Shown: positions 1,865 to 27,728 of the stretch, piece by piece | How the letters are laid out: each line of letters opens with the position of its first letter | How positions within the stretch are numbered: position 1 is the stretch's first letter | Virus record (IMG/VR): IMGVR_UViG_3300021356_000077 | Span: 1 to 33,834 of that record | Origin: a virus | Reading direction: 5' to 3' (one strand) | Length of the DNA: 33,834 nucleotides | The notes under the pieces: generated by a model | Databases searched by the model: none | Seen by the model: the letters and a program-made list of their open reading frames with translations, nothing else | Told to the model about the DNA's origin: nothing | Program-made: the position numbers and the translations under genes

Positions 1865-1876
1865 CTCTTTTAATTA

Positions 1877-3409: not shown

Positions 3410-3410
3410 C

Positions 3411-6400
3411 TTAAATACTTGTCGTGGTGATTAGGAACGTGGTGTAATTCACACTATCTATAGTATATGTAGTACCCGAGATGGTGGTTCCTTCTGCGAA
3501 TACTCCCGTTGTGATATTTTCAACTGTGAGAGTTCTAGTGGTAGAATCCCAAGTCTTGACCGTACCATATGCGGTGCCGTCATTGATTGCTTGTCCTGCA
3601 GTGAATGTTGCTGCTGAAGCTGCTTGATTGAGCACCAGTTCAACCTCTGCTTCGTGAGGAACACCCTCACTCAAACCACCTGCCTCTGTAACGATTGATT
3701 GTCTACCTTCGGAGTCGGTAATGACTTCGTTGACGGTCAGCAGAGTGGTGTTAATACCTGCGGTTTGTGCCTCAAGACCATAGAGTGTGTCAGGTCTGCC
3801 TCCATCGAGAGAGATCTGATTTTCATATAGAGTTCCTGTATTGTTGACAGGATTGTTATCTGGATCTTGCGTGTGTGAAGTTCCAGGACCCTGCGCGGGA
3901 TATGAAAGAATACAACCACCAGCATTGTTGAACTGTTGACATCCTGTCTGGACACCACCGTTAAACCTGACGGTTGCTGTGGGTTCCAAAGGACGACCTG
4001 CGTCGATTTCAGCAAGTTCATCAACTTCAAAGATAACCAAGAGTTCACGTGTTGAAGGTCTCCAGTCATAGACACGTGAAACCTTTGATGCTGCTGTGGA
4101 ACCAGATCTATTTATGATGTCGTTGACTTGGAAGTTGTAGGTCTGAGAGGAGTCTACGACAACTCTTTGGTCATATCTGAAGTTGATACCTCTTTGCAGA
4201 CCGAAGAATGTTGTAGCAGTTTTTGCACTGTAGGAGATCTTCTCTTTGTTGATGTAGAACTCACCTGCCTGAGCAAATCCAGAGGTGGAAGTCACGTGAA
4301 CAGTGGTGTCAGTTGAATTGACATCACGTGCGATATTCGTAAGTCTATTTGCAGAAGAACCGAATGCGGAACGATTTCTGTTCTTACGAATTAGAGCAGC
4401 AGGTCTCGTGAATGCAATAGTTGGAACGGTCTGATAACCCTTACCAGGATCAATAATTTCAACATCAACGATGGCACCTGCAGAGATGACAGGTTTCAGG
4501 ACAGCACCAACACCCGAACCAGAGATAACTCTGAGGTTAGGTGGTGTGACATAGAACTGACCACCGTTGGGGATTGCAACACTTGTGATCTTACCGAAGG
4601 TCTCAACCTGTGCTGCAGCAGTTGCACCAGTACCTCCACCACCTGTGAGGGTGACGACGGTAGGTTCTGTAGAGGTTGATCTATAACCAACACCCTCATT
4701 CACCTTACCTGTACTAGAGTTGACTGTGAGTCTGATACCAACAACGATACCTTTGGTGGGAATACCGACTGCACCATTTCCACCCTCACCACGGATTCTG
4801 ATGTGCGTGGTAGTGTTATTGAAGTAATTTTCACCGAAAGATCTCATCTTGATGCCTGTGATCTGACCCAAATCTGCAGGTAGGACACCCACGATTGGTT
4901 CTGCAATAGCACCAAATGGTGCCTGAATATCAAACTGGTCGATAGTCTGGTTGAGGGGTAGAGGTGCACCATACTTCACAGGTTGTGCGTAGTATGTGTT
5001 ACCGATTGCATAAGGATACGCAGGATCTAGACTTTCATCCAGAGTCATGAAGTATGCGTAGGTTCCATTGGGATATTCAGGTGTGACACAGAATCTACCA
5101 TTGTGCTCATCCAAATCACCCAGTGCCTGCACGTATTCAAAGTCTTGAATGAATGAACCCATGGGTTCTAGTGAAGGTAGGGGACGATTGGGATTGTATC
5201 CGACAGGTCTCAGTCTGTAAGAAGACTCAATTCTCTTGATTGCACTAGTTGCATCATTTGCGGTTGTGTAACCATAAGGACCATAGATTGGGAAACCATC
5301 GAAGGAAACACCAAGAATCTTGGAGTGACCGTTTGCGTGACGTGCCTTATCACCATTGAAGTCAGTGGTGTTGTAATAAGGGTTAGTCACTAGAGCAGAG
5401 TTCCAGCAGTTGCCTAAGAACTCAGCAGAGTGGTAGTGATACAGACCGTTCTGCTCAGGATGTCCACCACATGCGTCTTCACCAAACTGGTTATTCTCGT
5501 GGTTACCTGCATTGCGGTTGAATCCTGCAGGAGGATTGCCACCATTACCAGCAGAGGGGTTGAACAATGCAACACCATTTGCCATCAGACCAATAATGCC
5601 CAGAGGAACATTTCTGTCAGAACTTGTATTACCACGTTGTCCAGTACCACCTCTCCAAATAAACTCATGAGTAATGTTCTGTGCAGAGATAGTATTTGGA
5701 TTCTGAGGATTGGGGAATGTTCCTGCAGTTGCGGGTGCAGGTAGACCATCAGAGAAGACATACATCACGGAAGATGTCATGAATGATTCTGCATTGCTAC
5801 CAGTCATCTGGAAGATTGTAGTAGGATCGAATCCTGTAGATGCGATGGTGCCACCCGAACCTGTAGCAGTGTTGGGGTTGTAGTCACCGATGACATCTAC
5901 ACGTGCGGGGTTGAAACCTGCACCAGATTCAAACACTCTCACTGAAACCAGACGACCATCTTGGAACTGAGGTTCTAGATTTGGTTCCTTGATTGCTGTA
6001 CCTGCGTTGGTGATATTGATCTGAGGTGGATTTGTTGGATCATATCCAGCACCAGTATCAGTGACCTGAACTGAAGAAATGCCACCTCTCTTATCAAAGA
6101 CAGGAACCAGAACTGCACTGCGTGTAGCAGTAACTTGGGAACCACCACTCAGTGTGATCGTAGGAACTTGATATCCAATACCGTTGTTAGTGACCTGAAT
6201 TTGGTTGATACCAACCAGAGACACTGCCTGAGCACCCGTACCAGTGTTAGATAGGATTGCCACGTTGGGGTTGGAGGTGTAACCCGTACCACCATTCGTG
6301 ACTCTGATCGACTCGATGTAACCAGAGGTCAGGATTGGAGTCAGTTCAGCACCAACACCTTCAATCGTACCTTGATAATCGAAGGTAGTTAGTTCGTTAG

Positions 6401-9400
6401 AAGAACCAACCACAGCAACTTCTCTGTTCTCAATCTCACCCTGAATTCTGAGTTCGTCACCCACTTCAATAGGAGGAATAATCTCAGATGCTTCCACGTC
6501 TGCGTCTGAACCCACGAAGGAGAATGCAAGGAACTTAGAATCAGTTCTAGGTGCCTCAGCAAAGTCAATACGTGAACCCAACAGATTGAATGCAATTCCA
6601 GGTTCCTGCAGAATACCATTCAAGGTGATGATCAGGTTGTTCTCTGCCTTAACAACTTGGTTCTGAACACCGTCAGAGAGTGACAGTGAGTAGGGGTTGC
6701 CGTTTAGCAGCAGGTTGAACGAGGATCTTAGTGAGTCAAACTCAGTGCCAATATCATCCAGTTTTCTCAGACGACCGATGTAGTATGCGAAGAACTGGGA
6801 ATCAACTGTAGGTGCTTCAGTGAAGGTGATGTTTGTACCGAAGACGGTGAATGCTTCACCAGGAGCCTGTAGGACACCATTCAGGAATACCAGAACATGT
6901 CCTTCTGCAGGTGGTGCATAGGTCTGACCATCAGCAGCAGTGATTGGGAAGACAGTCTTCACACCATCGAAACCTTTCACGAAACTTGTTACAGAACCAT
7001 CAGCAACGATAGTGTTGGTCTTTGTGAGATAGTGAACAGCACCGTAACCAGTACCAGTGATACTGACACGAATACCTGTTTGTGCATCAGTCAACGTATT
7101 TGCCAGTGACAGATAGTTGTTCTGATCAGCAATACCTGTATTCAGGGAACCAGGAATCACGTAGTATTCTTGCTCTTCAACCAAACCACCGACTGCAGGT
7201 GATGAAACAAAGGTGTTGATCGTTTCTGAGTTAGAACCCTGAGTCACTGTCAAACCAGGAGTGAAGGGTCCTTGACGATCTCTGATAAACAGAACACGAC
7301 CACTGCTATCAACGTTGACCACAGTTGCAACACCACCAAAGTCAGAGAAGATGTTCTGACCTGCGAGGAACGTTGCAGTAGTAGTGTTGTTCAGAATCAG
7401 AACTTCAGAACTGAACGAAGAGGTATATGTGACCTTATCACCAACTGAGAAACCATGGTTAGGAACAAACAGGTGATTGTAGACTGTTGAGATGCCACCA
7501 ACCCCAGAGGGGTTAGAACCTGCAATACTTCCGTTGAAGGTCTTGACATCATCCTGTGTGTACACAGAGGTGATAGTGTCACCTGATGCAAACTCAGTCT
7601 CACCAGTAATTGACTCGGTGTCAATAACCATCTTAGTTGCACTAGAAACCTCTTCAATGGTTGCACTCTTGCGTTTCAGAATCTTCACCTTAGAAGACCA
7701 GTTAGAAGCATTGTCATAGACCTCATACTTCTCAGCAATGCCAGTGCCATTGACTTGGTTTAGATCCAGGAAGTTCTCAACTGCAGTGATGTCTGCAGTA
7801 ACTGCGACTGCACCACCACCACCAAGAGGAATCACCTGAGCATCAATCTGATCACCAACCTTGAAGTAACCAGTGATGTTATTCATCAAGAAGAATCCTG
7901 CATCAGCATCGAAGGACTGAACAGTGCCTTGACCAATCACATTACCGTTCTCAATCACCTGAATAACAGTGTTGACTGTGAACACATTACCTGTAGGTGT
8001 AACGTTATTGTAGGTAATCTTGACGTTAGAGGAAATGATATTTGCAGTGTTCTGCTGATAATTCTGAACTTCACCATCAGTTGTGGTAACTGTACCAAAG
8101 ACAATATCACCAGCATCGAAGGTTGGGATGTCCTTAGCAATTAGAGTTGTCTCTAGGAGTTCTGTAGTGCTTAGGTTGAAGTATGCAGTAACTGCGGGGA
8201 GTGTCTGTGCAGGACCTTGAATGAATTCATTAGTTGTGAAATCTTCAGGACCAACAACGATGACTTCCAGTTCTCTTGCATCAGCATCCCAGGAGATTAC
8301 ATCAGCAATCACACCAGAGGTGAGACCAGTAACTTCATCACCAACGTTGAATGTACCCACACCAGGACCACCAAGAATGGTTACGTTTGGTGCTGAGGTA
8401 TAACCAGCACCAGGATCAAGCAAGTTGATAGCAGTCACAGCACCATTAACCACAGTTGCTGTAGCAAGTGCCTGTGTACCACCAGGAGGGGGAGCATCGA
8501 TAGTCACTTGTGGGGCAGAAGCATAGTTCTGACCACCAACCAGAGTATTGACTGACAGAGCACCAGTGACGGGATCCACATTGAAAGTTGCGGAAGCACC
8601 CGAACCACCAGCAAGCATGGTCAGTTTTCTCTTGTTCGCAATCTGTGATGCATTGAAGTCTCTATCAACATATGCCTCTAGAGTAAACTCAACAACGTTA
8701 GATGCGTTGTAGATGCTGTCACCAGCAGTGAATCCAGATCCACCAGAGACGTTCTTCAGATAGATTCTTCTGTTCTGCTGATCAACTCTCATGATGGTGC
8801 CACTTGTACCACCAGAGATTGCATTCTTCAGAACTGCACCAGCAGTAATACCTGCAGGAGGACTATATGTTGAAGGATATGTCAGTCTATCCATGGTATA
8901 AATTTCAGACTGATCAAACTCAGCAACAGCATTGATGTTGAGCATATTCAGTGTATCCAACTTCAGATCATTGGTATCAGACACTAGATCTGTGTGCTCA
9001 GCAGTTGCAGGTGTAAATGCACCAACATACTTGGCATAGTTGGAGATCATCAGTTCATCAAAGTATCCAGTAAATGCATTAGCACCACTGAAGTTTGCAC
9101 CGACATAAAGTGGGTTAGTTGTACCGTAGTTGTTGTTATCTGTGTAGGTAGAACCTTCTTGAGCACCATTGACATATAGTTTGGTCTCAACACCATTCTT
9201 AACTAGTGCAACGTGATACCACTGTGCTGATTGAATTGGATTGGTTGCTGTGATAACATCAGCACCATTCACGTAGTATTTGATGGTAGAACCATCAAGA
9301 GTTAGAACAGGTCTAGTCTCAGGTTCTGCAGTTCTAAAGTCAATCATTGTCTTGACTCCAGCAGCAATGCTCTGAGGATAGATCCAGAAGTCAATAGTGA

Positions 9401-12400
9401 AATCATCCGAACCAAATCCATATGAGGTTGTTGTTGCAACACTCATATAGTCACCAGTGCCATCCAGATAGAGTGCACTTGAACCAAACTTCTTGAGAGC
9501 AGTCAGTAGTTTTGCATTACCATTCAGAGTGACTGTACGAACAGGATCGTGTGAAGTATCAAAGGTGAATGTCTGTTGATCAGCACCATTGAAGTGGAAG
9601 ACTGAGATAACATCTTCGTTCTTATATGTCAGAGTATCATTCGTGATTGTGAAATACTGCTGGAAAGTGGGAACACTGTTCAGTGAATATCTAAGAACTG
9701 ACTTGGACAGATCATCGACAATTGTGTTACCCTGACCAGGAACAGAGATTCTTTCAAAGACCACACCGTAGAACGATGGGATGTTAGGCAAGAATGTGGT
9801 TGTACCTGTGATAGGATCTGTTTGAGCAGAAAGAACTTCAGACAGGAAGATATCATCTAGATTCTGACTGGTTAGTTTGTCAACAGCAACAGAAACATTC
9901 TTGATGTTGCCACTTGTACCACCACTCTGACCTGTTAGTGTTGTGCCGATATCATCAACACCAACTTTCAACAGACCCTCATTGCCAGAACCAGCACCAG
10001 AAACTTCCTTCTGAATCAAGACATATTGATCAGACTTGCTCTGAGGTCTACGTGCAAAGAAGGGAGTAACCTGAGAGTTATTCAGATCCGTTCTGACTTC
10101 TGCAGCCTGTAGATTTGCCTGAATGACAGCAGTCTGGTTCGTACCATAAGGTAGATTCTGAGAAATAACTGCATTTGTGCCGAGAAGTGACTCATCACCG
10201 ATATCCTTAACAACCAACTCCCTTCTACCAGGATCCCAGAAAACAACTTTCGCAGTTGTCTGCTGACCAGAGTAGTTGATTAGAAGTGTACTTGTCTCTT
10301 GGAATGCTAGGTTGAGAGGAATCTCAGGTTCGGTGAAGACAGGTTGGGAGACAGTGATTCTAGTCAGATCTTGCTCGATGATATTCATACGATATTCATC
10401 TTCTGCATGATCATTGAGTGTGAACTGCAGGTTTCCAACAGGATTCCAGGGAACCCAGTTCACATTACCGTCATTAGCAGAAACAATCACGTTGCTGACA
10501 ACAGTGATTTGGAAGGAATTGCCAGTCACACCATATGGATTTCCAGTTGTGGGAACAGTTGCAGATGTAAATGAGACTGCCTCATAGAGGTCTGTTCCAT
10601 ACTTACGAATCATGCCACGATAAATGACTTCACCAGAAGACCAGATTGCATGATCAGTCTTTGCTTCTCTGATCATCTTCCATGTAATAGGAAGTTCTGC
10701 AAAGTTCAGACTGTATGCATCATCACCACTACCACCAGCAGTATCAACTGACTTAGGACCACGAAGAAGTTTGTACTTAATCAGTGCTCTGTTGTTCACT
10801 TCACTGTTAAGAACTTGCATCTCATCGATGAGGAATTGCCATGCATTATCAGCAGATGCAATAACATCACCTTCAGCAAGTGAATATGCACTGAAAGGTC
10901 CTTGTGCCTGGTTAGTAATTACTTGCCAACGTGATCCCCATGCCACATTAGGATCAACTGAAATGTCCATCTGACCAGTTCTAGTCAGAAGATTGAACTT
11001 AAATTGATCTTTAATATTGACCAGTCTTGCTGTTGAGGAGATTGTATAATCTTCAGTGATAATACCCTTAGCAGCATTTAGACCACTGGGTGTATATGCA
11101 TTATCAAATAGGTTAGATGCAAAGTTGTACTCTCTTTCATAGATGTCCTGAACACAGGTTGCACCCTTACCGATGTATAGAGGTGCACGATTACCTGCAG
11201 GATTTCTACGATCATATTCAAATTGCATTGTCAGATCATATTGCTTATCAGTGTTGATAATTGCTTCATCACCAGATTGTGTGAGAACTTTTTCACCGAT
11301 AATAAAGTCACCTTGACTGTCTAGAGCACCAGGAGTAACACCTGTCTGAACTAGTGCCTTCTGCTGAATAATAATATTTCCATACAAGGAAGTTCCACCA
11401 GGAGGGATATTAGTTGGGAGTGAAGTTGCAGGGTTGTAAACTTGCTCAGGTTGAATGGAAACTGCACCGTTGGTGTCAAACTCACGGTTGATAAATCCAT
11501 CATTAGTAACTGTGTTGGTGTAAACAATCTCTAGAGTTTGAGCAATCGTGCTACCTGCACTGTTAGTTGTCTGTGAAATGATTCCAACAACACGAGCAGT
11601 CTGTCCAGAGGTAATACCTTGAACGGTATCACCGACCAACCATGCAGGATATGGATTGGGAACACCTTGATTGACGATACCTTCGATCTCAATACGAGCA
11701 TTGAATTCCTCAACGATTGCAAATTCAACTGGAGGTGACTGGGGAATAGTTCTCTTCAGACCATCAAAGTATGTTCTGGGGTTAGTTGCCTCAAGAGTCG
11801 TGATTAGAATCTCGAATAGAGTATCAACTGCAGATCTGACGTTAGCACAGTTAGTAAGAGGATCAGGTGTAATGGTGTTATCAGTGAACTGAGTCAAACC
11901 ATGATCACCACTGACTTGAACAGCAGCATTCACAACTACCTGAACAGCAATTTGTTTTGCTTGGTCATATGCATATGCTGATTGCACTTTCTCAGTCTCA
12001 ATGTAATTCAGAGAAGATGCACCAACATAAACCTCAGTTGCATCATAAACTCTGCTATTGCCACCATACTGAAGGTTGAATGCAACTGCTTCAGTCACAT
12101 CCACAATGTCATCAGTACAGTTGACATCACCACCAGGGACTTGGAAGTCAGGGAAGTTTGCCTTCATTCTTGCAACTGCTTCTGCTGCAATGAATTCCTT
12201 GTTTGCTTCAAGCAAGTTAGCAGCATCACCAAATCTCATTGCAACAACTGAGAACTTATCGACGATTCTCAGTTTTTCACCAGCAACAAACTTTCCATCT
12301 ACTTGAGATAGTGTTAGTTGATCCTGTGCACCATATGGTGATGTGATACTTTCAATGATACCTGTTGCACCACTGGTAGTACCGATCATTTCATCACCAA

Positions 12401-18400: not shown

Positions 18401-21400
18401 CAACACCAGTGGAAGTATCCAGATCAGAACCAGCACGTGAATAGACTAGTTGACCAGATGTGTTGACTGCTAGTGTAGGCAGTTCATCCAATCCACCAGT
18501 TCTAAAATCAAACAGTGTGTTTACTGCAGAAAGATCTGCAAACTTGAAGAATGCTTCTGCAGTAAAATCACCAGTTCCAAATGCATATGCATTGCTTGCA
18601 GCAGTCTCAATGACTGCAGTAGAAGCATTTGCAACTTTAATTGAATTGGAACCAAACTTTGCATCAGCAGAAGACACTGTTGCATTGGTAAATGCTTGCG
18701 TATTAACTGCTGCTCTTTGAGTCTTGATCTTTGCAGCAAGTTTACCAGTGCTGTCAACATAAACGATATATGACTGATCAGATGCGTTTGCCCCCCACTT
18801 ACCAAACAGAACTTTATCGGTGGTTCCGAAAGGAGCACCATAAATGAATGATTCAAGTGTAAACTCATTAGTAGTTACACCAAAGTCAGTATCTGAAGGT
18901 GTAGACAAATAACTTGTATTTGAAGATTGGTCTAAACGCAGAGAACTACCACCAAACTTCCATACAGTGTTATCATATCCAGCATCCTGAACCCGAGTCC
19001 AAGTTCTATTAGTAAAGACATTTTCACCTTCACCAATAGCATAAACGTCTTTATTCTTACTGGTGATTAGTTTTGTGACCTTAATATGATCTTCTGTTGC
19101 AGAAGACTTTGCATACCAATAGGAAGATGCAGCATCTTTCTGAGGATGTTCAACCTTGATAACTGGAGGTCTATCAGGATCAAAGTCTCTACCTGAGTTT
19201 GTGATGTCAATAGAAGTCAACTCACCACCAGACGTGGGGGTAGTTGTTCCAATAAAATCAAATCCATCACCAATAACTGTAATCTTAGGTGAGGGTGTAA
19301 TACGTGAAGTATATCCAGTACCAGACTGTGTAGTTGTGAATGACTGAATACCTTCAATAACCTTGGTGGCAAATGTTTTAGTTGTTGCCAGATTGTCTGC
19401 AGGATTATTGATGATAACACTATCACCAATTTCTAGATCATTAACACCAGATGTAGTGACAGTTGCCTTGAAATCACTTCCATCTAGAGTAAATGTATAG
19501 TTGGAAATAGTCAGACCTGCAATAGATCCAACTGCTGCAGCAACACCAGCACCTTCGGTATCAGTGTCATCAAAGGTCAGAGGGTCATTGACAGCATAGT
19601 TTGTTCCTGGATTTTCGATCGAGAACCCTGTGACACGTGCAGATTCAAATCTGTTGATGGTTTCAACTTCAATATCAACTCTAGATTCCACAGAGACTGA
19701 TGGGAAGTAGTCAAACACTTCCAGTTCAGGTTCTTCGAGTAGAGTGATGAAGGTCTCAGATTCAGATGAAGTGATACCCTGAACAGAACCAGTAGCACCA
19801 GTGGAGACCTGAAGTAGAATCTCATTTACAAGGAACTTTTCATCATCAGGAGTAGATGTTGAATATTCAACTCTCAACTCATTATTAACTGCATCCCAGG
19901 AAACGACTTGTGCAGTCTTGATACTTTGACCTGTGGATTGAATGGGTTGACCTGCCACAAAGTTTGCTGTGACATCAGTCATCACCATCAGGGTATCAAT
20001 GAAACCATTATTATCACTATCTTCAGGTGCAAGTGCGAGAACTTCTCCATCTTGACCAAAAGTTCCATCACCATTCTCAAGAATTAGTTCTGCTGCTTCT
20101 TTGTTGGGAGTTCTTTCAATATCATCAACGTCAGTATTCAGATATGCATCTCTATAACGAGTGACATCACCAGGCAAATAAGCATGGTTTGAATTATTTG
20201 AGAAGTTCCAATCATTGGGAACTGCCTGATATCTGTCACCGATGATGTATGGGAACAGAGGATTACCATCTGATGAAGCATCAATGGTAACAAAGTATGC
20301 ATAGACACCATTAGGGAACTCAGGTGTCTTACAGAAACGACCATTGTATTCATCTAGTTTGCCCAGATTGAACACATACTCGTAGTCTTGAATGAATGAA
20401 CCTAGGGGATAGTGTTCACCAACCTGTGTAACAGTAGCTGATTGTGCAGGTGCACTCTGAACCAGAGTGTCTCCAACCACAGGTAGATTTGTATAATCAC
20501 CATATGGTTTAAGTTCTAGGACACCAGTAACAGAGTTCCAAGCAAGAACTTCCAAAACGGGGAAACTGCCACCAAATGCAGCACTAGTAGGTGCACTTTG
20601 ATTGCTAATAAAACCACCGACAGTGAAATCAACACCAAAGTTTGCAACAGTGACTGTAATCTTGGGGAAGATATCGGGACCATTCTCTCTAGTGGTCTTG
20701 AGTCTGTAGGATGTTGTCATTCTGACAGCATCAGATGAGATTGTATTGGGATCATCAAAACCGTAAGGACCATAGATGGGGTTGCCATCATATGCCCAAC
20801 CAAGAATAGGTGAGTGACTCTTAGTTGCTCCACTCTCAGTATAAGTGTCTACGTTGTTTACAGTAGTCTTAACTAGGTTATCTGAGAGGTTGTAACGTAG
20901 GAAAATGGGGTTTGATAGGTGTGCATATTCACCACCGAACTGAGAGTTCTGAGAAGTGAATACATAACCCTTTGCTGCATCTAGTTTACGAGCATAGTTT
21001 GACTTCTGGAAAATATCTTGTCCAACATTAGGGATAGTTTGTTGTTCCCAAACTTCACCGTTGTTGAACTCCCATTTGAAGATTTCAACATTGAATTGTG
21101 CACCCTCACCAATAGACAGCAAGAATACACTTGTATTTTGCTGAGTATAGTCAATACCTTTGTTTGAGAGGGTGATTGAGATAACTTTATCTGCTTCAAC
21201 TGTGCCAGCAGCACCAAGTTGTGCAGTTGCTTCTGCACCAAAACCATCACCAGAGATAAAGACTGTAGGAGGTGAGGTATAACCTGAACCTGAAGATAGA
21301 AGTGCAATGGATTCAATTTTACCATTGATCACAACTGGTTGGGCAGCAGCACCAGTACCAGAGTTCAGAGTAACTTTGGGTTGAGTGGTATAACCTACAC

Positions 21401-24400
21401 CACCACTAGTAATTTTGACTTCTTTGACAGGACCACGAACTGATGCAGTTGCAGTGGCACCACCACCTCCACCACCAACAAGGGAGATCTGAGGTGCAGA
21501 TGTATATCCAGTACCACCATTTTCAATCAGAATTTTAGTAACTGCACCGTTTGAGATAACAGCAGTTGCAGTAGCACCTTCTCCTCCACCACCAGCAATA
21601 GAAACGATGGGAACTGTGGTATATCCAGTACCACCATTTGTGAGGATAATATCTGATAGTGAACCATTAACAACAACTTCACCAGCAGCACCAGTACCAC
21701 CACCACCTTCGATGATCAGATTTGGTTTGTTCTGTGCATCATATCCAGTACCAGAAGTAACAACGTTGATCTTAGTCAATGAACCGAAGGTAACACCTTC
21801 AGAAGACTTGTAGTTATACAGAGAGACACCATTGACCCATTGACCTGTAGAACCGAAAACCGTCTCGGTTTTACTAGAGGTGGGTTGGGTAACAAATGGG
21901 AATCTCTTCAGATGTCTCTGGTTACCAGGAACTAGGGATGTTCCAACAAAAGGACCAATGTTATAGTTGGGAATTCCACTGGAAGCCACATAACAGTAGT
22001 CATTGTTGATGTAAGTGTTCTGAACATTGGCAATAAAGTCATTAACATTATTGTTGACTGTCAGATTAGTTGACTTACCTTTGTTTAGGTTCACTGCCAC
22101 AAACATTGTTCCGTTTGCGTCTGTTGTCACTGCAGAAGGCAAAGTGTAAGTAAACTGATTGACAATACCAGTTCCAGTAGTAATGATGTTTGTTACTTCA
22201 TAAACACCATTATAGATTGCTGGTGTAGCACCGTAGATGGTAATACTATCACCAGTTAGAATTCCATGATTATCATTTTCTGTGGTTACAGTTGCTGTAT
22301 AGACACCACTATCTTCAGTAACACTAATTGAGTTAATACGAAGAAGTTTCTTCACATTGTACAACCAAGACTTCACCAGAGTCTTATCACTAGTTGTACC
22401 AAGATTTGCAACTTGAAGTTTATCACCAGGCAGATAATATGACTTAGATGATGTAATTTCCGTTCTGGATGCTTCTGCAATACCAAGAATAGACATCACA
22501 ACAGGATTACCATCAGTATCAGTTGCTTGAATGGTAATATTTGCAGAAACTGGTGTACCTGCTTGTAGTGAAACTCTTGTTAGATCAGGTTGCTCATAAT
22601 ATCTCTCACAGTCAATAAACTGAGACAAAGTTTTCTCTTTATATGAAACTCTCTCAGAATCATTGATAAAGAAGAAACCATTTCTCTCTGGCCAACCAAT
22701 TGTAGAGTCAACAGAGATAATTCTGTCTGTGGCACCAATATTTTCGGAAAGAATAGTTTTGTATGGGACAACAAAATCACCAACTTGAGAATCTGCGTCA
22801 ATATAGATCTCAAAGATGTTTTCATCTGCAATTTGCAGTGAAATCACTTCTTGAACTAGTGCAGAAGCATATTGGACATTATCATCACTAGTATCTGCAA
22901 ACTGTTGCAGAACTTGACCAGAAAGTTTTGTTGGATCACCAGAAACAACTCTGACACGCAGAAGAGTGTCAATTTTCCACTGAGATGCCGATGGACTTAG
23001 AAGTTGTTCTCTAGGATATGAAATATTGACAGATTCACCATAGAGCATCCTGAATAGGAACTGAATACTCTTTGCTGTACCTTTTGAGACGTAAAAATCT
23101 CTAATATTTTTAATTAGTAGTGCTGGGTCAACTTTCTCAAAGAAAGATGATGGTAGTGTTGGCAAGAACTGCTTGACAATCTCATCTAGGAACTTTTTGA
23201 TGAATAGAACCTGTAGATTTTTGACTTCTGTCGCAGATCTATGGTCAGATTCAAGAGATGTCTTGAAGTTAATGTCACCAACAGAATCCAGACCAGAAAG
23301 ACCTGAGAAAGCACGTGAGCAGTTGTTAAATGCAGATTTTGTGTAACCTCTACCTGCATCAAAGATCTCAAATCCAGTAACCTGACCTAGACCAATCGTT
23401 GCCGACGCAGTTGCACCTTTTGGTGCCGAGATGGTAATGGTGGGGGGATTTGCTGCATCGTAGTTCTGACCAAAGTTTGAAATCAGAATATCAGTAACAG
23501 CATTTGCAAATAGGATACTAGATGCCGATGCACCTGAACCACCAATCTGATTACCTGCTGCATCTAGTCTGCTATCAGCAATAAAGACACTGGGAGGGTC
23601 AACATACCCTCTACCACCATCAGTAACCACAATATCAGTCAATTGACCATTAGTAATGGTTCCTGCTGTTGCAGTTGCTGCAGGAGGTCTATCAATAGTA
23701 ATTTTGGGTTGCCTAGTATAACCAGAACCAGAATTAGTGATGTTAATACCAGTCACAGAACCAGAAGAATTGACCACTGCTACTGCTGTTGCTGTTGTGC
23801 CAAAAGGATCTTCAGGTGCACCGATAGTGACCGTAGGGGGATTAGCTTGATCATAACCAGATCCACCATCAACAACAGTAATTGATGTCAAACCTGAAAC
23901 AAAGGTAGTTGCAGAAGCAAATTTACCGTTACTAGATTTGAAAGTAATTTTTGGAGGATTGAGGTGAGTATAGTCTTCACCACCAACCTTGATGGGGATA
24001 TCCGTCAACAATCCAGTATCACTGATTGTTGTGATTGCCTCTGCACCGAGTCCAAACTCAGGCATAGAGAACTCAATCGAAATAATAAAGTTGTTTGCTA
24101 GATTAACAGAAATATTATTGTTTACAATGACATTGTTCTCAACAACGGCATAGTCAATAAAAGGTCTCAGTCTAGTTCCATTGTTTACAAAGTAAATCAG
24201 TTCTTCATGGAGAGGTGTGTAACTAACACCATTTTTTTGTAGACGATATACTTTCTTTCCTGAAGGAAGTGTCTCAACAATATCTGTTTGTTGTAGACGA
24301 TCCAGTTTAACAATAGGATCACCGACAAAACCTCTCAGAAACTTGATAGAGGTGTCATTTTGATCATCTAGAGGCAGTCTAGTTCTAGGAGCATTGGTAA

Positions 24401-24962
24401 ACTGAATCTGATTGTTATTGAGGATAACATAATCAGTTCCAGGTTCTAGGATTTCACCGAAGATCTCAACAACTAAATGATTGACATCTGTGATAAAAGC
24501 AGGCGCACCAAGATACTTAAGATCAAAAAGTCTCTGCGTTCCATTAAACGCAAAGAAGAGGGAGTCTAGTTCAATTTGCTTTCTAGCAACTTCCACCCCA
24601 GAAATGCCAGTGGTGAAGATTGCTTTAGGTGACTCAGTTCTAGATGCATAAGTGATGACTTCCGAATCAATCAGAATCATACCATCTTTGTCTTTGAAAC
24701 CCTCAGTGGTTTCAACTTCAATGGTTTTATCACCCTTTAGTACATTCTTAGTCAGACTAGTGCAAGATGTTATCTGAGCATTGCGATACGTGTCAACATC
24801 AAAGTATCTTGTGATGTTGTTCAGAATGTCAATAGGGTATCCACTACGTTCCTGTGACTCATAATAGCCACGAACAAATTCTACAAAAGTGGGATAATCC
24901 TGTCTGATGAATGCAGGAAATTGACCTGCAATACGATCCGATATGGCAATGTTCTTTTGCAT
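3411..24962 (-). CDS. Giant modular baseplate/tail protein (7183 aa) in the gene 7 position
   Basis: One uninterrupted frame of 7183 codons (roughly 0.75 MDa) between gp6 and gp8, the slot of the wedge initiator gene 7 in T4 (about 1030 aa). I see no direct sequence similarity to T4 gp7, so the equivalence rests on position. Residues 1-650 look like the anchor: an FPAFIRQDYPTFVEFVRGYY start and an SKGTAKSIQFLFRMLYGE / ISYPREQLLSP block near 615-655, of a type seen in phage baseplate proteins. The rest is a mosaic: seven clusters of GGxGYTxxP repeats, at least seven SWDxxTxxL modules, four or five LNGxLQxPG modules, three LamG-like folds (two nested), two YHYH-type domains, a propeller-like region (about 2423-2813) and a helical segment (about 4243-4408). 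The ATG is preceded by AAAAAGAG with 25 nt to the gp6 stop. No transmembrane segment or protease motif was seen. It is likely a virion protein extending outward from the wedge; glycan binding is inferred from LamG only. Confidence 0.85.
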   Translation of the reverse strand: MQKNIAISDRIAGQFPAFIRQDYPTFVEFVRGYYESQERSGYPIDILNNITRYFDVDTYRNAQITSCTSLTKNVLKGDKTIEVETTEGFKDKDGMILIDSEVITYASRTESPKAIFTTGISGVEVARKQIELDSLFFAFNGTQRLFDLKYLGAPAFITDVNHLVVEIFGEILEPGTDYVILNNNQIQFTNAPRTRLPLDDQNDTSIKFLRGFVGDPIVKLDRLQQTDIVETLPSGKKVYRLQKNGVSYTPLHEELIYFVNNGTRLRPFIDYAVVENNVIVNNNISVNLANNFIISIEFSMPEFGLGAEAITTISDTGLLTDIPIKVGGEDYTHLNPPKITFKSSNGKFASATTFVSGLTSITVVDGGSGYDQANPPTVTIGAPEDPFGTTATAVAVVNSSGSVTGINITNSGSGYTRQPKITIDRPPAATATAGTITNGQLTDIVVTDGGRGYVDPPSVFIADSRLDAAGNQIGGSGASASSILFANAVTDILISNFGQNYDAANPPTITISAPKGATASATIGLGQVTGFEIFDAGRGYTKSAFNNCSRAFSGLSGLDSVGDINFKTSLESDHRSATEVKNLQVLFIKKFLDEIVKQFLPTLPSSFFEKVDPALLIKNIRDFYVSKGTAKSIQFLFRMLYGESVNISYPREQLLSPSASQWKIDTLLRVRVVSGDPTKLSGQVLQQFADTSDDNVQYASALVQEVISLQIADENIFEIYIDADSQVGDFVVPYKTILSENIGATDRIISVDSTIGWPERNGFFFINDSERVSYKEKTLSQFIDCERYYEQPDLTRVSLQAGTPVSANITIQATDTDGNPVVMSILGIAEASRTEITSSKSYYLPGDKLQVANLGTTSDKTLVKSWLYNVKKLLRINSISVTEDSGVYTATVTTENDNHGILTGDSITIYGATPAIYNGVYEVTNIITTGTGIVNQFTYTLPSAVTTDANGTMFVAVNLNKGKSTNLTVNNNVNDFIANVQNTYINNDYCYVASSGIPNYNIGPFVGTSLVPGNQRHLKRFPFVTQPTSSKTETVFGSTGQWVNGVSLYNYKSSEGVTFGSLTKINVVTSGTGYDAQNKPNLIIEGGGGTGAAGEVVVNGSLSDIILTNGGTGYTTVPIVSIAGGGGEGATATAVISNGAVTKILIENGGTGYTSAPQISLVGGGGGGATATASVRGPVKEVKITSGGVGYTTQPKVTLNSGTGAAAQPVVINGKIESIALLSSGSGYTSPPTVFISGDGFGAEATAQLGAAGTVEADKVISITLSNKGIDYTQQNTSVFLLSIGEGAQFNVEIFKWEFNNGEVWEQQTIPNVGQDIFQKSNYARKLDAAKGYVFTSQNSQFGGEYAHLSNPIFLRYNLSDNLVKTTVNNVDTYTESGATKSHSPILGWAYDGNPIYGPYGFDDPNTISSDAVRMTTSYRLKTTRENGPDIFPKITVTVANFGVDFTVGGFISNQSAPTSAAFGGSFPVLEVLAWNSVTGVLELKPYGDYTNLPVVGDTLVQSAPAQSATVTQVGEHYPLGSFIQDYEYVFNLGKLDEYNGRFCKTPEFPNGVYAYFVTIDASSDGNPLFPYIIGDRYQAVPNDWNFSNNSNHAYLPGDVTRYRDAYLNTDVDDIERTPNKEAAELILENGDGTFGQDGEVLALAPEDSDNNGFIDTLMVMTDVTANFVAGQPIQSTGQSIKTAQVVSWDAVNNELRVEYSTSTPDDEKFLVNEILLQVSTGATGSVQGITSSESETFITLLEEPELEVFDYFPSVSVESRVDIEVETINRFESARVTGFSIENPGTNYAVNDPLTFDDTDTEGAGVAAAVGSIAGLTISNYTFTLDGSDFKATVTTSGVNDLEIGDSVIINNPADNLATTKTFATKVIEGIQSFTTTQSGTGYTSRITPSPKITVIGDGFDFIGTTTPTSGGELTSIDITNSGRDFDPDRPPVIKVEHPQKDAASSYWYAKSSATEDHIKVTKLITSKNKDVYAIGEGENVFTNRTWTRVQDAGYDNTVWKFGGSSLRLDQSSNTSYLSTPSDTDFGVTTNEFTLESFIYGAPFGTTDKVLFGKWGANASDQSYIVYVDSTGKLAAKIKTQRAAVNTQAFTNATVSSADAKFGSNSIKVANASTAVIETAASNAYAFGTGDFTAEAFFKFADLSAVNTLFDFRTGGLDELPTLAVNTSGQLVYSRAGSDLDTSTGVAITTGQWYHIALVRNSGTIKTYVDGVEYNSHTDGTDFGSSAIFHFGTNFDDVNPVRDGYIDEIRVSYGARYTAAFTAPSAAFVPDLDTLSLYHCENTAGSSSVTDDNMTTIELNTGSDTVSDSTWHHVALRRNGNEIKLFLDGADSGASSVVNFVYAGSAAAPVLTTTTDFTIGHTADTSFAKATDLYLDGFRFSLTSRYDAASFTAPTTTFIPDSFTGSLLNFNGEVGDTTIEDRGKVEYYAVVMKYLPTGALRWKQFIKATPANSGFNSKINLKALELSADESFLIVAGETNTATSGTENPDIYVHRIDPTDGTVGTAGWQVNIAGSGGSGTNEEYVEDISIGPDNKIYIVGRTTTNTVSTFDNFVVVMSDSGQVLNSRKVNTNTANDYYYGVHATSTNGEIVLVGKSESNNAEALNFAKLQLDVDNYPNIVANKQHLKAVGTEAFGKIKSDIDEDGNMYVLAEILNGSNAEQIQLLKIANGDQSYNFGDIYWQKYLNATTNTIVSIADISFDVFREIHIAFNHINTQTGLSEAYIQKYNIFGTQVESTKLSFQSQEDVNYDSAIILGCTSDVSGDTLISGCVVRSTEIGTNHVTPFDTDSYRLSQESLLIFKFRKDHDFRVEPDNTAVSKKYPRTAEATASDHPTWNGTTVVAAGAFAVYLGNIYRTVAGGTTGSTPPTHLTGDASDGGVTWTFYSKKGQLIFGSKIYITDDQSNTISGYVTSWDVTSQELVVNNLSQALPGNPDFLYQIDEDNPTVFNAAFNLNTFINFATENNYNAEYTLTVNASNDFTTLANTTRNISNIAAGAAGIQQFDISDAAATGLTLANNYISDPRITNYSTRIATVPNEDGQELKVTANVREKYYIEQANVVRTQRVIQLNLDGNVNYTVGARLTQANTSATGLVAGVTANRVLLYDIGTSTWQSGSGNTISSNVAGDTPSRYPASFSETKYVFVRTALSHYLTAGQIINVEGFNESTWTGNFNVYSTPGIRDFVYEAEDAAVVLNSSTVPSVTNNFSFGGNINNVYAYSKAPVLNLIRGQRYQFDTSHPSNLPYYLNFSRDNLNKIEFDFRNIPLRSTSTTTTVGTSVTIELTDDIEQIIYYYAQDYSGDNSLVEPTSFVNIIDNPYSGTFTVTSKPTTSSYTVNLSAEPDSETAANISTTTYSTTSKNVTGPISTIKLINSGGFYRKLPEVTGVVTERNITKIIINQAGQNYVDGTYSGLDIVGDGTGAKAQIKIIGGELTEATVTDPGINYTQGTLSINTIPGIISQGGAGAEVTVFIPPTGNGATIFPIGNEIGKIKTIKNSNFGFDYPHDYTLRPEITFPVNLQLRDASALNDIKITNPGSGYTTVPEVIISGGGGSGATAVATVRNNRLDGIEVTNPGQGYSSPPTVSIASVFAYQVNLDDQLMQFSFPHGINTGDIVRLQGEALEGVAHVLPSPSSAGLVSLDSATNYFAVAGTSNNLDDDQLRIALTLQDAQTGAFITFANTGQGKQQVTTEAFAGAAEAIVDVVSFLPGEYVYQGDDPANTNASGYVAEIDGWQKGPRILRLTTPTGTFAVDQPVTGIVSKSNGTIDSINQSSGILSIASETQTAGEFADNVGLLNDSSQRIQDSFFYQNFSYVIKSEVEINEWRDTIKNSVHPGGFRVFGELTLREPNDVIVGSRFTTSVERKVEITDFVSTSVIPFFTNVEPVYEALANSSVLFRDKDLTSSEVILTSVAKKIVDFSDEFDGEKRSFTLKTGDPDNAGDTLNITPPADSLLIAINGIAQAPATGTTSTAPPNSFEVSGSTITFAEPPAPPTKLQYREVTFDSESRVIIYPTANLQWTAGTNYNIGDYVYNGTYSYRVTASGTASGNVDGSTFTPTAAEYEPISGIMTTTIGAHSLRPGDKVRLLDNSFTFRCAQDNYATTHTYPRPGSDPFAGQPITILQVTATTITLNVGNAGTGTSTHQFVSALPNSVIEVTNGAPTHITDELVRPGLATDPVYKYIGTFGTTLEVGDEMIGTTSGATGIIESITSPYGAQDQLTLSQVDGKFVAGEKLRIVDKFSVVAMRFGDAANLLEANKEFIAAEAVARMKANFPDFQVPGGDVNCTDDIVDVTEAVAFNLQYGGNSRVYDATEVYVGASSLNYIETEKVQSAYAYDQAKQIAVQVVVNAAVQVSGDHGLTQFTDNTITPDPLTNCANVRSAVDTLFEILITTLEATNPRTYFDGLKRTIPQSPPVEFAIVEEFNARIEIEGIVNQGVPNPYPAWLVGDTVQGITSGQTARVVGIISQTTNSAGSTIAQTLEIVYTNTVTNDGFINREFDTNGAVSIQPEQVYNPATSLPTNIPPGGTSLYGNIIIQQKALVQTGVTPGALDSQGDFIIGEKVLTQSGDEAIINTDKQYDLTMQFEYDRRNPAGNRAPLYIGKGATCVQDIYEREYNFASNLFDNAYTPSGLNAAKGIITEDYTISSTARLVNIKDQFKFNLLTRTGQMDISVDPNVAWGSRWQVITNQAQGPFSAYSLAEGDVIASADNAWQFLIDEMQVLNSEVNNRALIKYKLLRGPKSVDTAGGSGDDAYSLNFAELPITWKMIREAKTDHAIWSSGEVIYRGMIRKYGTDLYEAVSFTSATVPTTGNPYGVTGNSFQITVVSNVIVSANDGNVNWVPWNPVGNLQFTLNDHAEDEYRMNIIEQDLTRITVSQPVFTEPEIPLNLAFQETSTLLINYSGQQTTAKVVFWDPGRRELVVKDIGDESLLGTNAVISQNLPYGTNQTAVIQANLQAAEVRTDLNNSQVTPFFARRPQSKSDQYVLIQKEVSGAGSGNEGLLKVGVDDIGTTLTGQSGGTSGNIKNVSVAVDKLTSQNLDDIFLSEVLSAQTDPITGTTTFLPNIPSFYGVVFERISVPGQGNTIVDDLSKSVLRYSLNSVPTFQQYFTITNDTLTYKNEDVISVFHFNGADQQTFTFDTSHDPVRTVTLNGNAKLLTALKKFGSSALYLDGTGDYMSVATTTSYGFGSDDFTIDFWIYPQSIAAGVKTMIDFRTAEPETRPVLTLDGSTIKYYVNGADVITATNPIQSAQWYHVALVKNGVETKLYVNGAQEGSTYTDNNNYGTTNPLYVGANFSGANAFTGYFDELMISNYAKYVGAFTPATAEHTDLVSDTNDLKLDTLNMLNINAVAEFDQSEIYTMDRLTYPSTYSPPAGITAGAVLKNAISGGTSGTIMRVDQQNRRIYLKNVSGGSGFTAGDSIYNASNVVEFTLEAYVDRDFNASQIANKRKLTMLAGGSGASATFNVDPVTGALSVNTLVGGQNYASAPQVTIDAPPPGGTQALATATVVNGAVTAINLLDPGAGYTSAPNVTILGGPGVGTFNVGDEVTGLTSGVIADVISWDADARELEVIVVGPEDFTTNEFIQGPAQTLPAVTAYFNLSTTELLETTLIAKDIPTFDAGDIVFGTVTTTDGEVQNYQQNTANIISSNVKITYNNVTPTGNVFTVNTVIQVIENGNVIGQGTVQSFDADAGFFLMNNITGYFKVGDQIDAQVIPLGGGGAVAVTADITAVENFLDLNQVNGTGIAEKYEVYDNASNWSSKVKILKRKSATIEEVSSATKMVIDTESITGETEFASGDTITSVYTQDDVKTFNGSIAGSNPSGVGGISTVYNHLFVPNHGFSVGDKVTYTSSFSSEVLILNNTTTATFLAGQNIFSDFGGVATVVNVDSSGRVLFIRDRQGPFTPGLTVTQGSNSETINTFVSSPAVGGLVEEQEYYVIPGSLNTGIADQNNYLSLANTLTDAQTGIRVSITGTGYGAVHYLTKTNTIVADGSVTSFVKGFDGVKTVFPITAADGQTYAPPAEGHVLVFLNGVLQAPGEAFTVFGTNITFTEAPTVDSQFFAYYIGRLRKLDDIGTEFDSLRSSFNLLLNGNPYSLSLSDGVQNQVVKAENNLIITLNGILQEPGIAFNLLGSRIDFAEAPRTDSKFLAFSFVGSDADVEASEIIPPIEVGDELRIQGEIENREVAVVGSSNELTTFDYQGTIEGVGAELTPILTSGYIESIRVTNGGTGYTSNPNVAILSNTGTGAQAVSLVGINQIQVTNNGIGYQVPTITLSGGSQVTATRSAVLVPVFDKRGGISSVQVTDTGAGYDPTNPPQINITNAGTAIKEPNLEPQFQDGRLVSVRVFESGAGFNPARVDVIGDYNPNTATGSGGTIASTGFDPTTIFQMTGSNAESFMTSSVMYVFSDGLPAPATAGTFPNPQNPNTISAQNITHEFIWRGGTGQRGNTSSDRNVPLGIIGLMANGVALFNPSAGNGGNPPAGFNRNAGNHENNQFGEDACGGHPEQNGLYHYHSAEFLGNCWNSALVTNPYYNTTDFNGDKARHANGHSKILGVSFDGFPIYGPYGYTTANDATSAIKRIESSYRLRPVGYNPNRPLPSLEPMGSFIQDFEYVQALGDLDEHNGRFCVTPEYPNGTYAYFMTLDESLDPAYPYAIGNTYYAQPVKYGAPLPLNQTIDQFDIQAPFGAIAEPIVGVLPADLGQITGIKMRSFGENYFNNTTTHIRIRGEGGNGAVGIPTKGIVVGIRLTVNSSTGKVNEGVGYRSTSTEPTVVTLTGGGGTGATAAAQVETFGKITSVAIPNGGQFYVTPPNLRVISGSGVGAVLKPVISAGAIVDVEIIDPGKGYQTVPTIAFTRPAALIRKNRNRSAFGSSANRLTNIARDVNSTDTTVHVTSTSGFAQAGEFYINKEKISYSAKTATTFFGLQRGINFRYDQRVVVDSSQTYNFQVNDIINRSGSTAASKVSRVYDWRPSTRELLVIFEVDELAEIDAGRPLEPTATVRFNGGVQTGCQQFNNAGGCILSYPAQGPGTSHTQDPDNNPVNNTGTLYENQISLDGGRPDTLYGLEAQTAGINTTLLTVNEVITDSEGRQSIVTEAGGLSEGVPHEAEVELVLNQAASAATFTAGQAINDGTAYGTVKTWDSTTRTLTVENITTGVFAEGTTISGTTYTIDSVNYTTFLITTTSI
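3495..3600 (-). other. SWD-type module closing the giant protein
   Basis: The last residues of the giant protein (about 7120-7175) form one copy of a short beta module: FTAGQAINDG, then VKTWDSTTRTLTVEN, then GVFAEGTTISG. The same pattern (GxxVxSWDxxTxxLxVxxxxGxFxxGExI) recurs at about 3995-4085 (VYDWRPSTRELLV), 8235-8315 (VISWDADARELEV), 10185-10255 (VVFWDPGRRELVV), 16175-16235 (VTSWDVTSQELVV), 19850-19915 (VVSWDAVNNELRV) and 20500-20565 (VLAWNSVTGVLEL), and once in gp8. I do not know a family name for it. Confidence 0.75.
4395..4880 (-). repeat. GGxGYTxxP repeat cluster 7 in the giant protein
   Basis: Residues about 6695-6856. Several divergent copies of a beta repeat of roughly 35-45 residues: FGENYFNN, EGVGYRST, GGGGTGATAAAQV, NGGQFYVTPP and DPGKGYQTVP. 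Each copy couples an x-I-x-V-x-N-G-G-x-G-Y turn to a short P-x-V strand and an often glycine-rich ATA strand. Confidence 0.8.
4975..5460 (-). other. YHYH-type domain, copy 2 (motif intact)
   Basis: Residues about 6502-6663 of the giant protein. The segment contains the literal YHYH motif (NGLYHYHSAEFLGNC), then SFDGFPIYGPYGY, SSYRLRP, MGSFIQDFEYVQALGDLDEHNGRFC, TPEYPNGTYAYFMT and YPYAIGN in order. This matches the YHYH domain family found in bacterial and phage proteins, whose function is unknown as far as I recall. The residues between SSYRLR and GSFIQDFEY number only about 17 here, unlike copy 1. Confidence 0.85.
5875..6355 (-). repeat. GGxGYTxxP repeat cluster 6
   Basis: Residues about 6203-6363 of the giant protein. 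Copies read NGGTGYTSNP, NNGIGYQVP, DTGAGYDPTNPP and ESGAGFNP, each followed by a short beta strand. Confidence 0.85.
6505..6995 (-). repeat. Tandem pair of LNGVLQxPG modules
   Basis: Residues about 5990-6153. Two adjacent copies of a module of about 75-80 residues. The first has VLVFLNGVLQAPGEAF, then GTNITFTEAPTVDS. The second has LIITLNGILQEPGIAF, then GSRIDFAEAPRTDS. The shared order (F-x-L-x-DG, LNGxLQxPGxxF, GxxIxFxEAPxxDSxF) shows a tandem duplication. A more divergent copy lies at 12960-13215 (LLIAINGIAQAPA), and one near the N-terminus at 24375-24565 (LVVEIFGEILEPG). Modules of this kind are frequent in phage tail proteins. Confidence 0.8.
8360..8640 (-). repeat. GGxGYTxxP repeat cluster 5
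   Basis: Residues about 5442-5535 of the giant protein. Two clear copies, VGGQNYASAPQVTI and DPGAGYTSAPNVTI, run directly into an SWD-type module (FNVGDEVTG...VISWDADARELEV). Confidence 0.85.
8990..9495 (-). other. LamG/concanavalin-like domain, complete
   Basis: Residues about 5157-5325 of the giant protein. Order of motifs: KFGSSALYLDGTGDYM, GSDDFTIDFWIYP, MIDFRT, SAQWYHVALVKNG, TKLYVNGAQ, LYVGANFSG, TGYFDELMISNYAKY. This is the standard layout of the laminin-G/concanavalin-A-like jelly roll of phage and bacterial surface proteins (Laminin_G_3 type), which often binds glycans. It is a close paralogue of the inner domain at 18081-18719, with shared DFRT, QWYH-ALV-N and Y-DE-x-IS motifs. Confidence 0.85.
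11740..12235 (-). other. Alpha-helical 'NKEF...YGGNS' module
   Basis: Residues about 4243-4408 of the giant protein. It stands out from its beta-rich surroundings by being Ala/Glu/Lys-rich and predicted helical: LEANKEFIAAEAVARMKANF, a CTDDIVDVTEAVAFNLQYGG segment, then AYAYDQAKQIAVQVV and CANVRSAVDTLFEILITTLE. From memory, related NKEF/GGNS helical modules recur in large structural proteins of marine T4-like phages. Two Cys residues sit at the start of matching helices. Confidence 0.6.
14190..14885 (-). repeat. GGxGYTxxP repeat cluster 4
   Basis: Residues about 3360-3592. Copies include NSGGFYRKLP, QAGQNYVDG, DPGINYTQG, NPGSGYTTVP and NPGQGYSSPP, with a GGGGSGATAVATV strand between the last two. 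The best-conserved copies are at the C-terminal end of the cluster. Confidence 0.85.
16525..17695 (-). other. Propeller-like region of the giant protein
   Basis: Residues about 2423-2813. Repeating strands of the form x-Y-Y-A-V-V-M-K-Y, SFLIVAGETN, DIYVHRID, KIYIVGRTT, EIVLVGKSE, NMYVLAEIL, EIHIAFNH and SLLIFKFRKD are spaced some 40-55 residues apart, each beginning after a polar 'D-x-x-G/D-x' turn. This is the look of a 6- to 7-bladed beta-propeller of SBBP/delta-60-like type. The fold is inferred from this periodicity only. Confidence 0.55.
17727..18965 (-). other. LamG domain interrupted by a second LamG domain
   Basis: Outer domain, first half (residues about 2000-2081): KFGGSSLRL, NEFTLESFIYG, KVLFGKWG, GKLAAKIKTQ. 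Inner domain (2082-2294): KFGSNSIKV, GDFTAEAFFKF, LFDFRTGG, TGQWYHIALVRNSG, KTYVDGVEYN, GYIDEIRVSYGARY. Outer domain, second half (2295-2413): DSTWHHVALRRNGN, KLFLDGADSG, DFTIGHTAD, LYLDGFRFSLTSRY. Neither outer half makes a full jelly roll alone, but joined they do, in the right order. The inner one is complete. Confidence 0.75.
19150..19650 (-). repeat. GGxGYTxxP repeat cluster 3
   Basis: Residues about 1772-1938. Copies NPGTNYAVNDP, QSGTGYTSRITP and NSGRDFDPDRPP are separated by an inserted strand-rich segment with the string LEIGDSVIINNP. More divergent than the other clusters. Confidence 0.7.
20215..20830 (-). other. YHYH-type domain, copy 1, interrupted by an SWD module
   Basis: Residues about 1378-1583. 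Motifs shared with copy 2: ILGWAYDGNPIYGPYGF, TSYRLKT, LGSFIQDYEYVFNLGKLDEY, NGRFCKTPEFPNGVYAYF and FPYIIGDRYQ. Copy 1 lacks the literal YHYH string. It also has some 85 extra residues (about 1433-1518) between SYRLK and GSFIQ, containing VLAWNSVTGVLELKP and VVGDTLVQS, an SWD-type module. Confidence 0.8.
21130..21790 (-). repeat. GGxGYTxxP repeat cluster 2 (most regular)
   Basis: Residues about 1058-1278. Six copies in a row: TSGTGYDA, NGGTGYTTVP, NGGTGYTSAP, SGGVGYTTQP, SSGSGYTSPP and NKGIDYTQ. The three central copies each carry a GGGG-x-GATATA strand and are nearly identical in layout, with a period of about 36-40 residues. This is the cleanest copy set for deriving the consensus. Confidence 0.9.
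23000..23330 (-). other. Conserved N-terminal anchor segment of the giant protein
   Basis: Residues about 545-655. Helical and charged, unlike the repeats on both sides: FIKKFLDEIVKQFLPTLP, LLIKNIRDFYVSKGTAKS, IQFLFRMLYGESVNISYPRE and LRVRVVSGDP. The SKGT-x-x-S-x-x-FLFR-x-LYG string recurs, from memory, in tail/baseplate proteins of many myoviruses. It is the best candidate for the part that binds the wedge. Confidence 0.65.
23335..24015 (-). repeat. GGxGYTxxP repeat cluster 1
   Basis: Residues about 316-543. Six copies: VGGEDYTHLNPP, DGGSGYDQANPP, NSGSGYTRQP, DGGRGYVDPP, NFGQNYDAANPP and DAGRGYTK. They sit inside the N-terminal anchor region, splitting the N-terminal FVEFVRGYY part from the SKGT block. 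Confidence 0.88.
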
Positions 24963-27718: not shown

Positions 27719-27726
27719 TATTTATA
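27719..27726 (-). promoter_or_regulatory. T4-type late promoter (TATAAATA)
   Basis: The minus strand reads TATAAATA, an exact match to the T4 late promoter octamer recognised by gp55-RNA polymerase. It lies 57 nt upstream of the 62-aa gene and directly after the terminator of the preceding unit, as a promoter for the 25-6-giant-8 operon should. Confidence 0.8.
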
Positions 27727-27728
27727 GT

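Follow-up and report, generated by a model that had tools for sequence, protein, structure and literature searches.

Phage T4 gp7 (1,032 residues), a protein of the baseplate wedge, is a monomer present in six copies per baseplate (PMC3004832 Table 1) and takes part early in wedge assembly. Its orthologue in Vibrio phage XM1, gp17 (242 residues), belongs to a core bundle of the (gp6)2–gp7 type, in which a helix-turn-helix joins two gp6-like chains and flexible parts bind the tail spikes (PMC10457771). Cyanomyoviruses are without T4 g10, g11, g12, g34, g35 and g37 (PMC2984593), and, according to reviews, the abundant marine cyanobacterial T4-like phages have none of the T4 genes for pins, short fibres and long fibres, the replacement for which these reviews leave open. 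T4 gp7 has also been reported as absent from these phages, with VrlC in its place (PMC7029224). Single frames of great length are nevertheless found in the gp6–gp8 slot of isolates, encoding 3,048 residues in S-PM2, 4,067 in Bellamy, 6,180 in S-SM1, 6,619 in S-SZBM1, 6,737 in S-WAM1, 6,817 in ACG-2014d and 8,573 in P-RSM6.

Here we analyse such a giant in a viral DNA of 33,834 bases (hereafter, the window), which is an entire IMG/VR record, so that most of the phage genome is missing. The giant kind itself was already known; this analysis adds the anatomy of a split gp7 core and a corrected gp7 assignment.

The giant frame and its operon

The giant is encoded on the minus strand (positions 3411–24962) by a single open frame with an ATG start and no internal stop, corresponding to 7,183 residues and 769 kDa. 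The remaining five frames across the same 21.5 kb contain 269–770 stops each, and their longest open run is at most 126 codons. The surrounding features are as follows.

2..1864, minus strand: DUF4815 (VrlC-type) baseplate protein, 3′ end cut by the contig
1877..3409, minus strand: gp8 baseplate wedge (phrog_438, E = 8e-217; Pfam Phage-Gp8, E = 3e-19)
24988..27066, minus strand: gp6 baseplate wedge (phrog_219, E = 4e-195)
27070..27474, minus strand: gp25 sheath initiator, upstream of the giant
27719..27726, minus strand: TATAAATA, exact T4 late-promoter motif, directly past a terminator-like stem (27734–27755)

The gene order is gp25–gp6–giant–gp8, with the DUF4815 protein downstream and a PAAR protein upstream along with gp25; the giant occupies the gp6–gp8 interval of a T4-like baseplate operon, which is the slot of T4 gp7. 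The TATAAATA site, identified by comparison with the T4 late-promoter motif given in PMC2984593, is probably the start of the late operon, a reading favoured by position alone, as motifs of this type occur in the window at chance level. Small ORFs lie in the gap preceding gp25 (27560–27910): a basic one (MAARSKSISGGK...) stops just ahead of the terminator-like stem and the TATAAATA motif, and a second begins shortly past them. Rfam and tRNA scans gave no matches.

The giant frame is under purifying selection, with dN/dS values of 0.07–0.18 (by blocks) for residues 1–3201 against two related contigs (L003 and L095) and 0.14–0.27 for residues 6111–7183 against a third (L094). In L003 (IMG/VR record G001), the same frame runs collinearly for 4,194 codons to the contig end, with 87% identity to the giant over residues 1–3325 and 91% over residues 3200–4193. 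In L094, the last 1,073 codons (residues 6111–7183) match at 97.7% identity without a gap, and the sequence continues into gp8. Independent contigs confirm residues 1–4193 and 6111–7183; for residues 4194–6110, no near-identical second assembly was found among the contigs compared. The initial annotation had described a 21.5-kb open frame, about seven times as long as T4 gene 7, between gp6 and gp8, and had raised the possibility that assembly had joined several genes. Its length comparison is right, its placement agrees with the phrog_219, phrog_438 and Phage-Gp8 matches, and the frame is real by the absence of stops and by selection. An artefact, for which residues 4194–6110 leave some room, is hardly credible: the two independent contigs reject it for most of the length, isolates carry single frames of 6,180–8,573 residues, and the coding signature is uniform along the frame.

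The GC content is 0.45–0.47 at window positions 2001–9000 versus 0.37–0.43 over most of the remainder, and the giant's GC3 increases over the last 2,000 codons, from about 0.27 to 0.40; these shifts suggest a different history for the C-terminal part.

Anatomy of the gp7 core

In the giant, the conserved core from the C-terminal part of T4 gp7 is split into three collinear pieces (residues 6–61, 589–733 and 3784–3843); about 530 residues separate the first two of them and about 3,050 the last two.

24780..24947, minus strand (residues 6–61): gp7 core segment 1, N-terminal helix-turn-helix (compact-gp7 HMM, E = 1e-16)
23199..24779, minus strand (residues 62–588): insertion 1, beta-rich domains and Gly-rich repeats (spacing table; model)
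22929..23198, minus strand (residues 589–678): gp7 core segment 2 (PF23786 at 611–654; PDB profile match to T4 725–759)
22764..22967, minus strand (residues 666–733): first part of gp7 domain V (VIA, against T4 gp7 768–823)
13614..22763, minus strand (residues ~734–3783): insertion 2, ~3,050 residues, presumably inside domain V
13434..13613, minus strand (residues 3784–3843): gp7 core segment 3 (family HMM, E = 4e-27; PF23786; T4 864–890)
3414..13433, minus strand (residues 3844–7183): C-terminal extension, 3,340 residues

Segment 2 bears the motif ..LIKNIRDFY.SKGT..SIQFLFRMLYGE.. and segment 3 the motif QRIQDSFFYQNFSYVIKS..W...I...VHPGGF..FGE. We aligned compact proteins from the same slot (Xanthomonas phage X1, 498 residues; Sinorhizobium phage phiM7, 1,006 residues; and the environmental L072, 1,019 residues) together with shorter cyanophage versions. 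Profiles for PDB searches were made from compact and cyanophage gp7s, and both T4 and the window were left out of the segment 1+2 profile. Against 177,635 PDB sequences, the only significant matches of this profile are the gp7 proteins of T4 (E = 1.8e-4) and Klebsiella phage KP1 (E = 6e-5). The segment 3 profile ranked the same two proteins first, at non-significant E values of 0.13 and 0.17, respectively; against T4 alone (E = 0.13) segment 3 is weak singly, and it is strong within the family. The matches follow the order of T4 gp7 (725–759, then 864–890): the core helical segment (T4 725–760) is recovered with an hhalign probability of 93, and the HPVGF segment (T4 864–890) follows the core helices collinearly.

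The Pfam wedge domain PF23786 is divided in the same manner. Its positions 178–221 match giant residues 611–654 (E = 1.6e-6, above the cut-off) and its positions 230–281 match residues 3794–3841 (E = 0.0017, below the curated cut-off), so that eight profile positions correspond to 3,140 residues; the split recurs in S-SM1, ACG-2014d and P-RSM6. In the reverse direction, a search with T4 gp7 reached the giant family phrog_2885 at E = 1.3e-4, and the window giant matches this family at E = 4e-256. With three small HMMs, one per segment, 16 proteins of 498–8,573 residues all yield segments 1, 2 and 3 in this order; most of these proteins contributed to an alignment. T4 gp7, which contributed to none, yields segments 2 and 3 but not segment 1. 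Segment 1 has no sequence match to T4, and by its position it would correspond to the helical domain of T4 gp7 (643–689). NCBIfam searches with three pieces of the giant gave no match, and no Gp7_6th match was found in the giant, the chain of which begins at the helical core.

Structure prediction points in the same direction. A model of residues 1–760 (49 sequences, pLDDT 79) has helices at 11–36 and 583–641, a beta-rich insert between them (pLDDT ~90) and a helical core with a pLDDT of only ~60. In a fold search with this model, KP1 gp7 is the sole PDB match below E = 0.001 (3.6e-4) and T4 gp7 ranks third. Residues 666–733 superpose on T4 gp7 768–823, in domain V, with an rmsd of 2.0 over 56 residues and a Z-score of only 4.7 (VIA), placing a domain V fold between the core helices and the HPVGF segment. 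Whole-model TM-scores to gp7 are low (0.05–0.07) because the domain arrangement differs, and the structural comparison rests on local superpositions only. For the compact relative L072, the model has a mean pLDDT of 51, with domain V stretches at ~75–90; KP1 and T4 gp7 are its top two matches by both Foldseek and VIA (Z = 9.8 and 9.6, ~88 residues). Its residues 247–727 map onto the contiguous T4 gp7 residues 764–851, which places an insertion of about 400 residues inside the domain V of L072. Insertion 2 of the giant (~3,050 residues) may, by analogy, also lie within domain V.

The PDB profiles, the split Pfam domain, the fold search and the T4 reverse search agree, and thus support the giant as a gp7 homologue. 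The initial annotation had inferred a gp7 role for it, considered that it might be the wedge initiator fused to adhesive modules, and had proposed comparing the predicted N-terminal structure with T4 gp7. This comparison returned KP1 gp7 first and T4 gp7 third, with the domain V match noted above; the gp7 homology stands and PF13385 matches recover the lectin-like modules, but a simple fusion of gp7 and adhesin does not describe the protein, as the core is interrupted twice and also carries an extension. T4 gp7 has the helical core, domain V and the HPVGF segment in the same order and in the same slot. Unlike the giant, it also carries ~640 N-terminal residues and domain VI, accessory parts that X1 and phiM7 lack too, and its core is continuous, with ~105 residues between segments 2 and 3 versus ~3,100 in the giant. 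X1, phiM7 and the L072 family (~1,020 residues) resemble the giant in having three segments and no T4-type N-terminal half, whereas their inserts are short and lectin or YHYH modules were not detected in them. No description of a discontinuous gp7 core was found in the literature searched.

Cyanophage relatives and their labels

With the N-terminal 683 residues as the query, tblastn found 503 phage records, nearly all of them cyanophages. The giant is a further member of a widespread cyanophage set and is not singular; nor is it unique in size, given that relatives occur in hundreds of cyanophage records and one orthologue has been verified in virions by mass spectrometry. It shares with the phrog_701/2885 giants homology along the chain, a length above 3,000 residues, the slot and the module set. 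The Kyanoviridae giants (phrog_701/2885/708), such as S-SZBM1_208 (labelled 'baseplate wedge initiator'), SSM1_102 and the 8,573-residue CPXG_00128 of P-RSM6, are likewise gp6-adjacent and have the three gp7 segments, an insertion 1 of 500–660 residues, an insertion 2 of ~2,700–3,100 residues, YHYH copy 1, laminin-G modules and Gly-rich repeats. The window giant differs from them in its sequence, with ~40% identity in the conserved parts and a mosaic C-terminal half, and, among the giants examined, it alone has a second YHYH domain with an intact tetrapeptide. The blocks conserved with isolates are residues ~1–2020, 3135–4044 and 5990–6270, and the remainder is mosaic: as queries, residues ~4217–4983 found no near relatives and residues ~5144–5990 no near relatives, only distant laminin-G-like matches.

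The S-SZBM1 orthologue (6,619 residues, 724 kDa) was detected by mass spectrometry in purified virions with 71 peptides (PMC9146016 Table 1), at a peptide coverage of 13.5%, which does not demonstrate chain integrity. The S-SM1 protein T4-GC969, present in the virion proteome (PMC3037559), is the 6,180-residue giant homologue SSM1_102.

Members of the set are labelled variously as 'virion structural protein', 'hypothetical protein', 'baseplate wedge initiator' or 'VrlC'. According to PMC7029224, gp7 would be absent and replaced by VrlC, making the giant an unrelated adhesin between gp6 and gp8; in keeping with this, publications describe gp7 as long hard to find in cyano- and pelagimyophages, and GenBank labels the gp6–gp8 protein of S-MbCM7 (KF156338, L192) as 'VrlC' and its DUF4815 protein as 'gp7'. 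We rejected this reading as very improbable, as it conflicts with what both the profile and the fold searches gave. All three gp7 segments are present in the gp6–gp8 protein S-MbCM7_077 (E = 5e-26, 8e-30 and 1e-24), whereas the DUF4815 protein S-MbCM7_079 has none of the three and no T4 gp7 match; the S-MbCM7 giant and the DUF4815 protein do not match each other, and the PDB match of the window's own DUF4815 protein is instead phi812 ORF65. The gp7 assignment contradicts the published absence and shows swapped labels in at least one database record; both the absence and the swap in S-MbCM7 appear to be annotation errors.

Compact gp7 proteins also make up a large family (L072 and L096–L173; ~850–1,130 residues). 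They are related to proteins annotated as 'hypothetical' or 'head closure Hc2' in pelagiphage Mosig/HTVC008M and methylophage Melnitz, and L072 carries the gp7 core, against the report that pelagimyophages lack gp7.

Modules and a proposed host-contact arm

Recognizable modules lie in both inserts and in the C-terminal extension.

24336..24578, minus strand (residues 129–209): fold resembling the T7 gp17 tail-fibre N-terminal anchor (VIA)
20277..21071, minus strand (residues 1298–1562): YHYH-family domain copy 1, without the YHYH tetrapeptide (PF14240; sequence)
18192..18587, minus strand (residues 2126–2257): laminin-G/concanavalin-type lectin domain (PF13385, E = 2.5e-24; 2.7e-17 alone)
17823..18101, minus strand (residues 2288–2380): laminin-G, second half only (PF13385, E = 1.3e-6, profile 58–139)
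9033..9464, minus strand (residues 5167–5310): laminin-G lectin domain (PF13385, E = 1.1e-21)
5034..5606, minus strand (residues 6453–6643): YHYH-family domain copy 2, YHYH intact at 6508 (PF14240, E = 5e-45)

The tetrapeptide of YHYH copy 1 is also lost in the four isolates inspected. About 20 repeats of the Gly-Tyr-Thr type are scattered along the giant, a count based on motif patterns only, as a BLAST self-comparison found nothing between repeat copies. The anchor-like fold of residues 129–209 (Z = 7.4, rmsd 2.7 over 67 residues; VIA) is a predicted likeness that is suggestive only, its Z-score being in the range of common arrangements.

We consider it likely that the giant is the baseplate wedge gp7 of a T4-like, cyanophage-related virus, combining a core bundle with a lectin arm and thereby wiring host contact to the wedge. 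Segments 1, 2 and 3 would fold together with two gp6 chains into the wedge core bundle, as in T4 and XM1, presumably with six such bundles in each particle. A covalent arm formed by the inserts and the C-terminal extension, and bearing lectin-type modules, may project outward; it would take over from the T4 gp10–gp11–gp12 pins, short fibres and long-fibre proteins absent from cyanophages. Because this covalent arm would do the work of the missing pins and fibres, touching the host surface would act directly on the wedge that triggers sheath contraction. In XM1 gp17, variable parts similarly serve host attachment, but that protein recruits separate tail spikes and has no covalent modules (PMC10457771).

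An adhesive role is suggested by domain names and context. S-SZBM1 has no long tail fibres, as is likewise reported for S-WAM1 and P-RSM6, and all three phages have a giant gp7. The 3,048-residue S-PM2 homologue gained non-synonymous mutations during coexistence with its host (PMC9910659). In S-SZBM1 virions, the emPAI of gp7 (0.41) lies between those of gp6 (0.23) and gp8 (0.98), an order that is only compatible with wedge stoichiometry. If six copies are present, the giant would total 4.6 MDa versus 0.72 MDa for T4 gp7. We put forward more tentatively the stronger proposal that a ~0.77-MDa wedge protein in six copies replaces the whole T4 pin, short-fibre and long-fibre set, its gp7 core being put together from three segments up to 3,100 residues apart and a single covalent chain relaying host contact to the sheath trigger; if true, few structural subunits of any phage baseplate would equal giant gp7 in size.

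Two other readings accept gp7 and differ on the modules or the chain. The modules might be structural, forming a wide baseplate network or a spacer, and not receptor-binding. The insert consists mostly of Gly-rich repeats and beta modules with no receptor-binding assignment, these repeats are shared with gp8 and a 1,072-residue neighbour, and further candidate adhesins are present in S-SZBM1 virions, a YadA-domain protein among them; set against the three laminin-G signatures and the host-coexistence mutations of the S-PM2 homologue, this seems rather unlikely. Alternatively, the giant might be a polyprotein cut during assembly, such that the 769-kDa chain does not occur in the particle. A prohead protease is present in T4-like phages and the 13.5% coverage of the orthologue is compatible with cleavage, but the core spans residues 6–3843, and cuts within the inserts would leave it associated non-covalently; we regard cleavage as improbable. 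On the favoured reading, a wedge gp7 with an adhesive arm, the split and module-laden core of the gp6-adjacent giants is a concrete candidate for the missing pins and fibres, and segments 1–3 define three short stretches that structural biologists can now seek in a baseplate map.

Two further observations concern the modules themselves. At window positions 17823–18713, a whole laminin-G domain is followed by only the second half of another, possibly a nested pair; the first half was sought at residues 1985–2095 and not detected. Modules like those of the giant (phrog_701/phrog_5342 matches) are also found in residues 205–298 of gp8 (1877–3409) and in the 1,072-residue neighbour (28453–31671), and therefore such modules are spread among several baseplate proteins.
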